Below are positions 6,405 to 47,656 of a stretch of DNA of 64,000 nt, piece after piece. Source of the DNA: Rhodospirillales bacterium (GTDB lineage: Bacteria > Pseudomonadota > Alphaproteobacteria > Rhodospirillales > UBA2165); NCBI GenBank assembly GCA_016777585.1, contig JADHRD010000001.1, positions 1-64,000 of the forward strand, in the 5' to 3' direction. The notes beneath the pieces are model-generated. The model had not been told where the DNA came from. It saw nothing but the letters and a program-made list of their open reading frames with translations, and did no database searches. A program made the translations under genes and the position numbers. Every line of letters starts with the position of its first letter. Within the stretch, counting starts at the first letter, position 1.

Positions 6405-8312
6405 ATGATAAATTTAACACTTCCAGATGGACAGATAAAGCAATACAATAAACCCGTTACGGGTGAGTTTGTAGCTGAAGATATTGGCTCAGGCCTTGCG
6501 AAAGCCGCATTGGCTATCAAGGTTGATGGTTTGATGAAAGACCTATCTTTTATTATTGAAAAAGACTGTAATCTGTCAATTGTAACAGCAAAAGACGATG
6601 ATGCACTGGACCTATTGCGCCATGATGCAGCGCACGTGATGGCTCAAGCGGTTCAGGAACTTTTTCCCGAAACACAGGTTACAATAGGTCCATCAATTGA
6701 AAATGGTTACTACTATGATTTTGCTCGAGAGAAACCATTCTCGACCGATGATTTTGACGCTATTGAAGAAAAAATGATGAGTATCGTAGATCGTGACCTT
6801 AAGTTTATTCGTGAAGTCTGGAGCCGAGATAGGGCTATTAAATTTTTTAACGATAAAGGTGAAGTGTATAAAGCTGAACTCATCGAAGCTATTCCAATGA
6901 ACGAGGACGTTACAATTTACAAGCAGGGTGAATGGACAGATCTTTGTAGAGGCCCTCATTTACCATCAACTGGCAAACTTGGTAAAAATTTCAAACTTAT
7001 GAAACTCGCTGGAGCATATTGGCGTGGAGACTCTAACAATGAAATGCTCCAAAGAATATACGGCACAGCATGGGCCGATAAAAAACAGCTTAAAAATTAT
7101 CTTACTATGCTGGAGGAAGCCGAAAAAAGGGATCATCGACGTTTAGGTCGAGAAATGGACCTATTTCATATCCAAGAAGAAGCGCCAGGGGCTGCGTTTT
7201 GGCATCCCAAAGGGTGGAAGCTTTACCGAACAGTGCAAGATTACATCCGAAAAAAATTGGAGATAGCGGGATATCATGAAGTAAACACGCCTCAGTTAGT
7301 CAACAAATCTCTTTGGGAAGACTCAGGACATTGGGATAAGTTTAGAGAAGCGATGTTTGTTACCGAAACAGAAGACAAATCATTGGCCATAAAACCAATG
7401 AATTGTCCCTGCCACGTTCAGATTTTCCGACAAGGCACCAAAAGTTATAGAGATCTTCCTTTAAGAATGGCAGAGTTTGGTTCATGTCATCGAAATGAGC
7501 CATCTGGCTCTCTTCATGGTTTAATGCGCGTGAGAGCCTTTACTCAAGACGATGCCCATATCTTTTGTACAGAAGACCAAATAACGGAAGAGACAAAAAA
7601 TTTTTGTGACTTGCTAATGAGTGTTTATAAAGATTTTGGCTTTGAGGAAATTATTATTAAATTTTCAGATAGGCCAGAAATGCGTGCTGGTAGTAATGAC
7701 ACTTGGGACAAAGCCGAACAAGCGCTTACTGATGCAGTGGATGCCGCTGGATACAAATATGATTTAAATCCTGGAGAAGGAGCATTCTATGGGCCCAAAC
7801 TTGAATTTGTTCTCCGAGATGCTATCGGAAGAGACTGGCAATGTGGAACACTTCAGGTTGATTTTGTACTTCCAGAACGATTAGATGCGGTATATATTGG
7901 AGAAGATGGTAAAAAACACAGGCCAGTAATGTTACACAGGGCTATATTAGGCTCGTTTGAGCGTTTTATCGGGATATTAATTGAAAATTATTCAGGTCGC
8001 TTCCCATTCTGGTTAGCTCCGCTACAAATCATTGTAGCGACAATTACAGATGAAGTAATTCCATATGCAGAAAAAGTCTTATCGCAGTTAAAATTTCAGG
8101 GACTAGCTGCTTCAGCCGATTTTAGGAATGAAAAAATAAATTATAAAATCCGAGAACATTCGGCTGCAAAAGTTCCGATTATTATGGTACTTGGTCTGCG
8201 CGAAGCTGAAGAAGAAACTGTAGCTATGCGAAGACTTGGTGGAAAAAATCAAGAAATTCTTGCGCTAACATCAGCAATTGCTAAACTAAAATCGGAATCA
8301 GAATTTCCATGA
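6405..8312 (+). CDS. thrS: Threonyl-tRNA synthetase
   Basis: TGS domain, [16 protein letters not shown], class II motifs, [10 protein letters not shown]. Confidence 0.98.
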
Positions 8313-8456
8313 TCAGAGATTTAAGTTGTTAATAAAGTAAATCTTTGTGATAAAGAACTTGATTATTGGTGCCATAACTTCGGAGATTTATTATTGACAA
8401 AATTTGTGTATATAAATTCCTGATTATTTGGCAAAATTTAGAAGGAGAAAAAAAGA

Positions 8457-8993
8457 ATCGCACGCCCACCATTTAACGCCACCCCTTCCAAGGAGGGACC
8501 GGCTATTAACGAAGGTATAGACTCAGAAAATGTCAGGTTAGTTTTGGCTGATGGAGAAATGGCAGGAGTTGTATCCAAGGAAGAAGCAATAGAACGTGCC
8601 CTTGAGGCTGGTTTAGATTTAGTGGCAATTTCACCAAATGCTGAGCCACCCGTGTGTAAAATACTGGACTATGGTAAATTCAAGTATGAAGCACAAAAGA
8701 AAAAAAATGAAGCCAAGAAAAAACAAAATGTTATTGTTGTAAAAGAAATTAAAATACGTCCTGGAATAGAAGACCATGATTATCATGTTAAGTTAAGAGC
8801 CATGAATAAATTTATAGCGGAAGGCGACAAGGTTAAAGTTACGCTACGTTTTAGAGGTAGGGAAATGGCACACCAAGAATTAGGTGGGAAAGTATTGGAT
8901 AGAGTGCGTGAAGACATGGAGACAGTGGCAAAGGTGGAACAATTTCCAAAGATGGAAGGCCGACAAATGACAATGGTTTTCTCCCCTAAATAG
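8457..8993 (+). CDS. infC: Translation initiation factor IF-3, apparent AUC start
   Basis: Supplied ORF starts at TTG 8544, but the in-frame open region extends upstream and encodes [29 protein letters not shown], the conserved IF-3 N-terminus. In-frame stop TAG at 8439; no ATG/GTG/TTG between; GAAGGAGA Shine-Dalgarno at 8441-8448 precedes ATC at 8457. Confidence 0.85.
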
Positions 8994-9042
8994 TCTTAAC
9001 AAAGAAAATTAGCGGGTTTTGTTGAATATTTATATATTGTTT

Positions 9043-10233
9043 TTATGTTTTACTATGTAGAGCCAAGGTGATGGCATATGATAAGGCTAGAAATATTAAA
9101 CTACCAATCATACAATATGTCATGCCCCCAAGTTGAAACAAAAGTCCTGAGAATAACGTCCCAAAAAAACGTCCTCCAGCGTTAGACATGTAGTAAAAAC
9201 CCACATTCATCGCTATTTTATCTCTATCGGAGTAATCAAGAATAAGATAGGAATGGATAGATGAATTAACTGCAAAGGCAATACCAAAAAATATCAACCC
9301 AACTAAAACAAAATTAACTGAGTAAAAATCCCAATAGAGACTTAGAGTAATTAGCAAGGTTATAATCATTAAAATAATTAGCCACATACGAGATGTTTCA
9401 GCATTACCCTCAACAAATTTTGGGGCTAATGATTGGATCAAACCATATCCAATAATCCAGCAAGCCATATAAAACCCAATTTCTGAGTGTGCCCAATCTA
9501 ATTTAATAGACAAGAATAGAGGTAAACCAACGACAAACCAAATATCTCTAGCCCCAAAAAGAAAAAATCGAGCCCCTGACAGAATATTTATTTTTTCTTC
9601 TTTTGAAAAAACATTGGAAAATTTGATCTTTTTAGCTGTTTTTCCCATATTCTCAGTAATTAAAACAAAAATAAGAGAAACGGCGATTGAACCAGCCATA
9701 AGATAAAGAGCCGAGGTATAACCAACCCAAGATAATAGCCCGCCACCAAGAAAAAAACCCAAACCCTTTAGGGCGTTTTTTGAGCCGGTTAAAATAGCAA
9801 CCCATTTAAATAATTTTGACTGCTGCCCATCCACAACTACCAACTTAACTAAACTTTTTGAACTCATTTTTGTCAGGTCTTTTGCAACACCAGACAACGC
9901 TTGCATTGCCATCACGAAAGTCACAGCCTGCCAAACTGGCCAACTGGGATCAAAACCAGCAAGAGCAGACAAGGCAAAAACCTGCAGACATAAACCAACT
10001 ATTAAGGTTGATTTAAGGCCAAATCTCGAGCCTATCCAGCCACCCACTAGGTTCGTGATAATCCCAGCTAACTCATAGAATAAAAATAATAGGGCAATCT
10101 GAAGAGCATTATATCCTAGTGTATAAAAATGCAATAATACCAGCATTCTCAGAGCACCATCACTCAAGGTGAATACCCAATAAGCTCCGGTAACCAAAAT
10201 ATAATTTTTAAGTGGGCTAGAACTCGTATGCAA
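9043..10233 (-). CDS. arsJ: Organoarsenical efflux MFS transporter ArsJ-like
   Basis: N-terminus [67 protein letters not shown] resembles ArsJ as I recall it; 17-bp overlap with an upstream gapdh is the hallmark context. Confidence 0.85.
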
Positions 10234-11227
10234 CTTTCTGAGCCAATTCTATTAATCTGTTCATATAACCCCATTCATTATCATACCAAGCCAAAACTTT
10301 AGCCTGTGTTCCATCAACAACCATTGTAGATGGACCATCAATAATTGATGATCTAGGATCATTTACGAAATCACTAGAAACAAGCGGCCGATCCTCATAT
10401 CCAAGTATATTTTTCAAATCACCTTGAGAAGCGCCTTCAAAGTAACCATTGAGTTCCCCTGAAGTTGTGGACCGGCCTAATTCAAAAACACAATCTAGAA
10501 GAGAGGCATTCAGCAATGGAACCCTAACCGCAATTCCACTTAACTTTCCCTTTAATGTAGGGTAAATTTGTGTAATTGCTTCGGCAGAACCGGTGGTAGT
10601 TGGGATAAGAGAATTAATACCAGAACGCGCCCGTCTTAAATCTCTATGAAATCCATCTACCATCACTTGAGTATTAGTTACATCATGGATTGTGGTAATC
10701 ACCCCATGCCTTAATTCATAATTTTCAATTATTACTTTCACTATCGGTGCAAGACAATTAGTTGTGCATGAGGCTGCTGTAATGATGTTGTGAATAGATG
10801 CATTATATAAATGATCATTTACTCCCATCACTATGTTTAACGCTTGTGAGCATTTTACTGGAGCAGAGACTATAACTTTCTTAGCACCATTATCAATGTG
10901 GGCTTGAAGATCGTCCAAAGTTTTATATTTTCCAGAGCACTCAAGAACGATATCTACGCCTAAAGCTTCCCAATCAAGAGTCGAGATATTTTTCTCCATA
11001 GAATAGGTAATAGCATGGCCCTGAACTCTTATACATCCATCGCGACCTGAAATTTCACGTCTCCACGTCCCGTGCACAGTATCAAATTCTAACAGATGAG
11101 CGGCTTGAATGGCATTACCTTCAGGATCATTAATATGACTAAAGTGTAGTCCTTTTAACCCCCAGCCTGCTCTCAAACCGAGCCGACCCATTCTCCCAAA
11201 ACCATTTATACCTATTTTTACGGTCAT
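10217..11227 (-). CDS. Glyceraldehyde-3-phosphate dehydrogenase, ArsJ-associated type
   Basis: [20 protein letters not shown] active site, [12 protein letters not shown]; 5' partner overlapping arsJ. Confidence 0.88.
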
Positions 11228-11472
11228 AATTTAAATTATATATCACGCGCCTGTTAGAAAATATATGAATTTTATATGACAAATTATGTCTGTTATTAAG
11301 AAAGCCAAATTGGATCAGAACCTCTTGCTTTTTTTGTTTTAGGCCGTTATAAACCGGAGCTTATAAATGGTCTGGTGGAATAGTTAATTCTCGGCATACC
11401 TAGCCATTAAAATTTTAAATCTCTATGACCCTCTGTTCTCTACAAGGACATAAAAAAAATAAGGAAGATAAA

Positions 11473-11679
11473 ATGCCAAAATTGAAAACAAAATCAAGTG
11501 CAAAAAAGCGCTTTCGTACTACGGCATCTGGAAAAGTTCGTGGCAATCCTGCATGTAAGCAACATTTTCTTAGAAGGCGGTCCCAGAAAATGAAAAGAAG
11601 CACACGTGGAACAATGATTATGGCTGATGCTGATGCAAAAAAAATATTATCGTTCATGCCTTACCATAGGGGTAAATAA
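11473..11679 (+). CDS. rpmI: 50S ribosomal protein L35
   Basis: [40 protein letters not shown] at 11473; the track's longer start at 11425 is not needed. Confidence 0.97.
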
Positions 11680-11681
11680 GA

Positions 11682-12047
11682 ATGTCAAGAGCGCAAGGAA
11701 AAGTAGCAAGTCGGACTCGACGCAAAAAAATACTCGCAATGGCCAAAGGCTACAGGGGTAGAGGGAAGAATAATTTTCGGATAGCTAAGCAACGTGTTGA
11801 GAAAGGTTTACAATACGCTTATCGTGACCGCCGGACAAAAAAAAGAAGTTTTCGCTCATTATGGATTCAACGTATAAACGCAGGAGCGCGCCTTCACGGG
11901 CTTAATTATTCTCAGTTCATGAATGGCTTAAAAGAAGCAGGCATTGATCTCGACCGTAAAATATTATCAGATATAGCTATCAAGGAGCCTGATTCATTTA
12001 AGAGCTTAGTAGAGCAGGCTCAGACAGCACTCAAAAAAGCTGCCTAA
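11682..12047 (+). CDS. rplT: 50S ribosomal protein L20
   Basis: [37 protein letters not shown]. Confidence 0.98.
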
Positions 12048-46480: not shown

Positions 46481-47656
46481 TTAATCGTTCAAAAGTGGAA
46501 TCACACCTGGCAATTTCTTTCCCTCTAGCCATTCTAAGAACGCGCCTCCTGCTGAGGAAATATATGAGAAAGAATCCGAAACCTGCGCATTTTTTAGTGC
46601 AGCCATTGTATCACCGCCTCCAGCGATTGTCGCAAGCTGGCGCTTTGTCGTTAGATTGGCAGCAGCCTGCGCAACACAATTGGTAGCATTATCAAATGGC
46701 TTAAATTCAAACGCACCCAATGGACCATTCCACAATAAAGTCTTACTATTGTTTAGTAACGTTATAATAGATGAAACAGTATCTGGCCCAATATCCAATA
46801 TCATCAAATCAGATGGGACGGAGTCTTTCTTAGCTAATATTGTTTTAGGATTATCTTCTAATTTTTCTGCTAATATTACATCCGACGGTAGATGAATTTC
46901 ACAGTCTAGGAGTTTTGCATTTTCAATAACATCGAGAGCAACATTAGCCATATTCTCTTCACATATTGATCGGCCTACAGGATTCCCTAATGCATATAAA
47001 AAGGTATTTGCCATTGCTCCACCCACAATTAGATGATCGACTTTTTTAAGTAGGTTCTCCAACACACCTAATTTAGTTGATATTTTATTTCCGCCCACAA
47101 CTGCCACCACTGGATGTATAGGATTACCAAGGGCTAAATCTAAAGCCTGTAGTTCAGTCTCCATAAGACGTCCTGCAGCTGAGGGCAGCAGATGGGTTAT
47201 GCCCTCTGTAGATGCATGCGCTCGATGAGAACACGAAAAAGCATCATTAATATAAACATCGGCTAATCCGCTTAAAAATTTAGAAAAATCCTGATCATTA
47301 TTTTCCTCTCCCGGGTTGAACCTAAGATTCTCAAGTAATATAATCTCTCCCGGGCCAGGTTCTTTATTCCCATCTGGTGAGAAAGTTATGTTACGGTTTG
47401 GCATAAGTATTTTTAAAAGTGGTATTAATTGCTCGAGCGAGTAATCCGGAACAACTTTCCCGCTAGGACGACCCAAATGACTAGCCAAAATCACTCCCGC
47501 ACCTTTTTCTAAAATTTCTTTAATAGTTGGAATGATCCTCTCAGCACGAGTTTGATCAGTAATTTTTCTTTTATTCATCGGCACATTCAGATCAACTCTA
47601 ACAAGTGCGCGTCTGCCATTGAGATCGAAGTCATCAAGTGTCTTAAAGTTAACCAT
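46481..47656 (-). CDS. pgk: Phosphoglycerate kinase
   Basis: RALVRVDLNVPMN, SHLGRPSG, WNGPLGAFE, TIAGGGDTMAAL. Confidence 0.98.
   Translation of the reverse strand: MVNFKTLDDFDLNGRRALVRVDLNVPMNKRKITDQTRAERIIPTIKEILEKGAGVILASHLGRPSGKVVPDYSLEQLIPLLKILMPNRNITFSPDGNKEPGPGEIILLENLRFNPGEENNDQDFSKFLSGLADVYINDAFSCSHRAHASTEGITHLLPSAAGRLMETELQALDLALGNPIHPVVAVVGGNKISTKLGVLENLLKKVDHLIVGGAMANTFLYALGNPVGRSICEENMANVALDVIENAKLLDCEIHLPSDVILAEKLEDNPKTILAKKDSVPSDLMILDIGPDTVSSIITLLNNSKTLLWNGPLGAFEFKPFDNATNCVAQAAANLTTKRQLATIAGGGDTMAALKNAQVSDSFSYISSAGGAFLEWLEGKKLPGVIPLLND

Follow-up and report, generated by a model that had tools for sequence, protein, structure and literature searches.

Arsenate resistance by a dedicated GAPDH and the transporter ArsJ is described in Pseudomonas aeruginosa and Vibrio cholerae. 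According to the P. aeruginosa model, GAPDH makes 1As3PGA and ArsJ exports it (Chen et al. 2016, as cited in PMC5930303 and PMC6205960). A V. cholerae arsJ mutant accumulates about 20-fold As(V) and a varG mutant about 3-fold (PMC9601151). 1As3PG was detected only inside V. cholerae cells, with neither 1As3PG nor extra 3PG outside them; the glycolytic Gap (housekeeping GAPDH) also makes 1As3PG, and varG mutants still contain it (PMC9601151). The same study proposes that V. cholerae ArsJ exports free arsenate, and notes that ArsJ occurs in species without VarG, the consequences of which its authors left open. The cargo of ArsJ and the need for a dedicated GAPDH are thus disputed between Chen et al. 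2016, as cited, and PMC9601151.

A gapdh-arsJ pair between infC and rpmI

The window (the whole 64 kb stretch of DNA that was analyzed) is contig C35 of genome G000, a 2.37 Mb assembly of 143 contigs that is 85% complete and comes from a marine alphaproteobacterium. It contains a gapdh gene and an arsJ gene that overlap, lie between infC and rpmI, and form a two-gene unit without an ArsR of its own. The features are:

8544-8993, + strand: infC (IF-3), convergent flank of the insertion site (TIGR00168, 230 bits)
9043-10233, - strand: arsJ, MFS exporter, second gene of the pair (NF033734)
10217-10233, - strand: 17-nt overlap of the gapdh end and the arsJ start (ORF coordinates)
10217-11227, - strand: intact first gene of the pair, encoding an ArsJ-associated GAPDH of the varG/gapdh type (NF033735)
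11228-11469, - strand: intergenic region from which gapdh and rpmI diverge, without an ArsR gene and without an Rfam match
11470-12047, + strand: rpmI-rplT, divergent flank of the insertion site (ORFs)

The MFS protein (396 aa, TTG start) matches the NCBIfam model NF033734 MFS_ArsJ, in full organoarsenical efflux MFS transporter ArsJ, with 526 bits against a cut-off of 400, over positions 1-392 of the 392 in the profile. The original prediction had read this protein as ArsJ from its N-terminus, and the profile score bears that assignment out. A placement outside ArsJ is rejected, the score being above the cut-off over the full profile. By sequence, ArsJ has no solved relative in the PDB.

The upstream protein (336 aa, ATG start) scores 512.6 bits with NF033735, the ArsJ-associated GAPDH model (cut-off 450), which outscores every other GAPDH model; the runner-up, PRK08955, reaches 476.7 bits and stays under its own cut-off of 563. 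Aligned with Bacillus stearothermophilus GAPDH (1gd1/3dbv), it keeps the active-site Cys (ASCTTN), His (TTIHD), and Arg (VRVP), and the NAD-binding motif and YDNEWGY also align. The ORF coordinates bear out the 17 bp overlap that had been predicted, so arsJ directly adjoins a GAPDH of the ArsJ type. The overlap probably couples translation of the two genes, and the same arrangement is seen in three other members of the genus (G002, G003, and G005).

The intergenic region is expected to contain whatever promoter drives the pair. This 242-nt leader is alignable across the genus; we found no RNA element or riboswitch for it in Rfam, and its promoter-like matches were not above those in shuffled sequences. 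On the opposite strand, the rpmI-rplT leader (11300-11470, +) carries an imperfect inverted repeat, GGCTAGGTATGCC...CCACCAGACC, that is conserved in all genus members seen. This repeat has no Rfam match and is possibly a ribosomal protein leader.

Other arsenic genes and a second GAPDH in the genome

As originally predicted, no arsR, arsC, arsB, or acr3 was found in the window: an NCBIfam scan of nearly all window ORFs of at least 150 aa found no arsenic gene besides the pair. The genome-wide profiles covered ArsR (PF01022, PF12840), Acr3 (TIGR00832), and glutaredoxin-type ArsC (PF03960); they have matches in the genome and none on the window's contig. With no PF01022 match on the contig, the locus does not group with ArsR-regulated ars operons. 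Elsewhere in the genome the two ArsR profiles found no ArsR; they match just one protein, of 151 aa, which is Lrp-like and encoded on a different contig. An ArsR gene could sit in the missing part of the 85%-complete assembly.

In this genome contig C122 carries acr3 (371 bits, cut-off 282.8) and contig C137 an arsC of the glutaredoxin type (117.2 bits, cut-off 106), both unlinked to the pair, and the idea that it has no further ars genes is rejected. For ArsM, there are just weak general methyltransferase matches under the cut-off. Ahead of acr3 (L071, 8005-9612) lies a gene for a small protein whose CxxCH motif resembles a haem-binding one, and no arsR is nearby. The prediction of a minimal two-gene unit without a local repressor therefore stands in that no ArsR is found at the locus, but "minimal" is weakened because acr3 and arsC are carried elsewhere. 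From its gene content, the genome would have at least two arsenic routes, the pair being one.

A separate housekeeping GAPDH is encoded at C127:8259-9251. It is 46% identical to the window GAPDH and scores 415.7 bits with TIGR01534 (GAPDH-I) and 361.6 bits with NF033735, under the cut-off of 450. This second gene rejects the view of the window GAPDH as the sole glycolytic one, a view that would have counted against the original prediction. The phosphoglycerate kinase homologue pgk (46481-47656) adjoins no gapdh, also as predicted.

We sampled 80 ArsJ loci across many phyla, 64 of them with at least 3 kb of upstream sequence. GAPDH is adjacent in 58 of these 64 and absent in six. A gapdh-arsJ locus without ArsR is common, because ArsR lies within 3.5 kb in just 36 of the 58 GAPDH-adjoined loci by a home-made profile that may miss some. 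In Sedimenticola and Thiotrichaceae MAGs (L159 and L164), arsJ without GAPDH is found downstream of a permease that, judged from sequence, looks like the ArsP type. Another arsJ without GAPDH (L143, 3558-4595) is directly upstream of a gene resembling class I fructose-bisphosphate aldolase, a glycolytic enzyme.

The infC/rpmI site in the genus and ArsJ across the order

Nine members of the genus have been sequenced (G000, the window genome, to G008), and the relatives are mostly MAGs. The pair or its trace is found between infC and rpmI in eight of the nine; the ninth, G002, has the pair elsewhere. The site, flanked by infC and rpmI-rplT-pheS-pheT, holds arsJ in G000, G003, G005, G006, and G007, and in G004 up to the contig end. 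The flanking rpmI-rplT is 86-97% identical across the genus, and all members carry a housekeeping GAPDH.

GAPDH is intact at the site in G000 only. It is frameshifted in two genomes and deleted in five, twice with arsJ deleted too, so that five genomes retain ArsJ but no working GAPDH partner for it (one copy, in G004, has its 3′ end cut by the contig). The closest relative of the window genome, G005, has a 95% identical ArsJ and a +2 nt frameshift in gapdh near codon 206, and the G003 gapdh has lost length and leaves its reading frame after MRVKVGINGFSRMGRLG*. Both G004 and G006 lack gapdh, and their arsJ begins at the gapdh start site. GAPDH codons 1 to 12 of G007 run in frame into arsJ (scar MTAKIDINGFGR|RDSNPLKNYALVTGAYW). 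G001 retains no more than about the first 16 codons, and its scar MTVKVGINGSGRMGRL continues directly into the arsJ 3′ end. The N-terminal GAPDH scar is all that is left in G008 (MTAIIGLNGFGRMDRLPRLLF*, ending MDRLPRLLF*). G002 has a GAPDH C-terminus at the contig edge upstream of arsJ; the edge hides the state of this gene, and the pair may be intact. Genome searches of G001 and of G004 to G008 found no GAPDH that passes the ArsJ-type cut-off. The frameshifts in G003 and G005 could be assembly errors, the relatives being mostly MAGs; the deletion scars would not easily be explained in this way.

A small tree of pheS, rplT, and rpmI has G000/G005 and G001/G003 as sister pairs and places G007 apart from G004/G006/G008 with moderate support. 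The scars differ, and that of G008 holds more GAPDH codons than those of G007 or G004/G006. Together with the tree positions, this points to several separate GAPDH-loss events. The pair at infC/rpmI appears to be an ancestral insertion that is eroding within the genus. The order of erosion suggested by these sites is that GAPDH goes first and repeatedly, ArsJ tends to stay, and finally both can go.

Solo arsJ evolves under purifying selection. Its dN/dS is 0.073 for the solo pair G004/G006 (dN 0.082, dS 1.12), and the reference genes of the same genomes have values of 0.037 (pheS) and 0.039 (rplT). Between G000 and G005, dS is 0.137 for arsJ, 0.55-0.64 for thrS, infC, pheS, and rplT, and 0.45-0.50 for gapdh. 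The region at about 9055-10300 is 92-98% identical to the G005 locus (L037), mostly at least 94%, with flanks of 80-93%. This is read most simply as recent recombination over a tract that covers arsJ alone.

Among 317 genomes of the order, 77 encode ArsJ and 72 encode a GAPDH that passes the ArsJ-type cut-off. No genuine GAPDH-only genome was found among the 317: the three that have GAPDH and lack arsJ (G171, G180, and G186) have it at a contig end, which explains them. Away from contig ends, G006, G007, G060, and G265 have ArsJ and no ArsJ-type GAPDH at all; this tally leaves out G177 and G237 for their contig position and G234, not taken as a solid case because its genome is 81% complete. 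G265 belongs to another family and is 98% complete; it has no ArsJ-type GAPDH, and its locus consists of arsR, a GAPDH N-terminal scar, and an intact arsJ. This appears to be a parallel GAPDH loss of the same kind in an ArsR-regulated locus. The asymmetry of loss between GAPDH and ArsJ, over roughly four to six independent events, is suggestive and not strong. At the G265 locus (L172, about 8000-9066), a phosphatase domain resembling ArsC follows arsR, as a fusion or directly joined, before the scar. In the family f21 genomes G043, G077, G110, G117, and G124, ArsJ and an ArsJ-type GAPDH are both present, on different contigs and unlinked.

Possible roles of ArsJ and comparison with described systems

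The locus is very probably a bona fide gapdh-arsJ arsenate-resistance pair, one that is eroding in the genus. The dedicated GAPDH would convert glyceraldehyde-3-phosphate, arsenate, and NAD to 1-arseno-3-phosphoglycerate, and ArsJ would expel the arsenic, either in the arseno-ester itself or as arsenate that the ester has given off; expression would not involve an ArsR at the locus. Both gene identities in the original prediction hold, whereas the export of 1-arseno-3-phosphoglycerate that it assumed is a model, free arsenate being inferred as the cargo in V. cholerae (PMC9601151).

That GAPDH was lost repeatedly is support, though no proof, for an ArsJ that can do without a dedicated GAPDH. 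Within the genus, ArsJ may be a stand-alone exporter of arsenate or of the glycolytic arseno-ester, for which the dedicated GAPDH is an optional extra, a reading we put slightly below even chances. Such an ArsJ would run through the housekeeping GAPDH or through direct arsenate export, and the GAPDH losses leave both possible and do not decide between them. If ArsJ exports free arsenate directly, the dedicated GAPDH would be a mere arsenate-buffering helper and hence discardable, which we regard as possible but somewhat doubtful. The repeated loss of GAPDH with ArsJ retained under purifying selection argues for it, as do the stronger As(V) accumulation in the V. cholerae arsJ mutant than in varG and the lack of extracellular 1As3PG there (PMC9601151); in addition G006, 94% complete, has neither Acr3 above the cut-off nor a PF03960 ArsC as back-up. 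Solo ArsJ is however no proof of direct export, since the housekeeping GAPDH also makes 1As3PG (PMC9601151). A conclusion of Chen et al. 2016, cited in PMC5930303, also goes against it: 1As3PGA is what ArsJ exports, together with GAPDH.

It is nearly an even bet that solo ArsJ still exports 1-arseno-3-phosphoglycerate supplied by the glycolytic GAPDH, the dedicated enzyme raising the rate and being lost at low arsenate exposure. The housekeeping GAPDH of every genus member and the 1As3PG that persists in varG mutants are consistent with this, but neither 1As3PG nor extra 3PG was detected outside V. cholerae cells (PMC9601151). It is quite improbable that the whole unit is decaying, with the window pair a relic near loss and solo arsJ a functionless transient stage. 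The loss of both genes at the site in G001 and G008 and the frameshifted gapdh of G003 and G005 would fit such a decay. Against it, arsJ reading frames are intact, the arsJ dN/dS in solo lineages (0.05-0.07) is near that of housekeeping genes, and the local arsJ recombination between G000 and G005 suggests continued use.

The genus offers close natural variants at one site: an intact pair, a broken GAPDH with an intact ArsJ, ArsJ alone, and nothing. The dispute over ArsJ is therefore directly testable.

The gapdh-arsJ genes of P. aeruginosa DK2, as described in PMC5930303 and PMC6205960, are like those of the window in that GAPDH and ArsJ adjoin and belong to the same curated families. They sit in an ars operon, whereas the 64 kb window has no arsR or other ars gene and acr3 and arsC are on separate contigs. 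The var operon of V. cholerae (arsR-varG-varH-arsJ) shares the VarG-like GAPDH, ArsJ, and a reduction-free arsenate route (PMC9601151). Unlike in that operon, the window genes overlap directly, with no arsR and with no varH phosphatase or other gene between them, which sets the locus apart from the Vibrio type. Halomonas GFAJ-1 (mfs1-mfs2-gapdh) has ArsJ (mfs2) and GAPDH beside a separate acr3 system, as does the window genome, but differs in its gene order, the extra mfs1, and its arsenic island (PMC5930303). Thalassospira, of the same order (L093-L103 and others), carries gapdh and arsJ in this arrangement too, with ArsJ 54-57% identical; most of its loci differ in having ArsR about 2-2.6 kb upstream, and they are at another genomic site. 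Compared with these systems, the pair itself is a known and ordinary arsenate-resistance module, and the novelty is the series of GAPDH decay within one genus.
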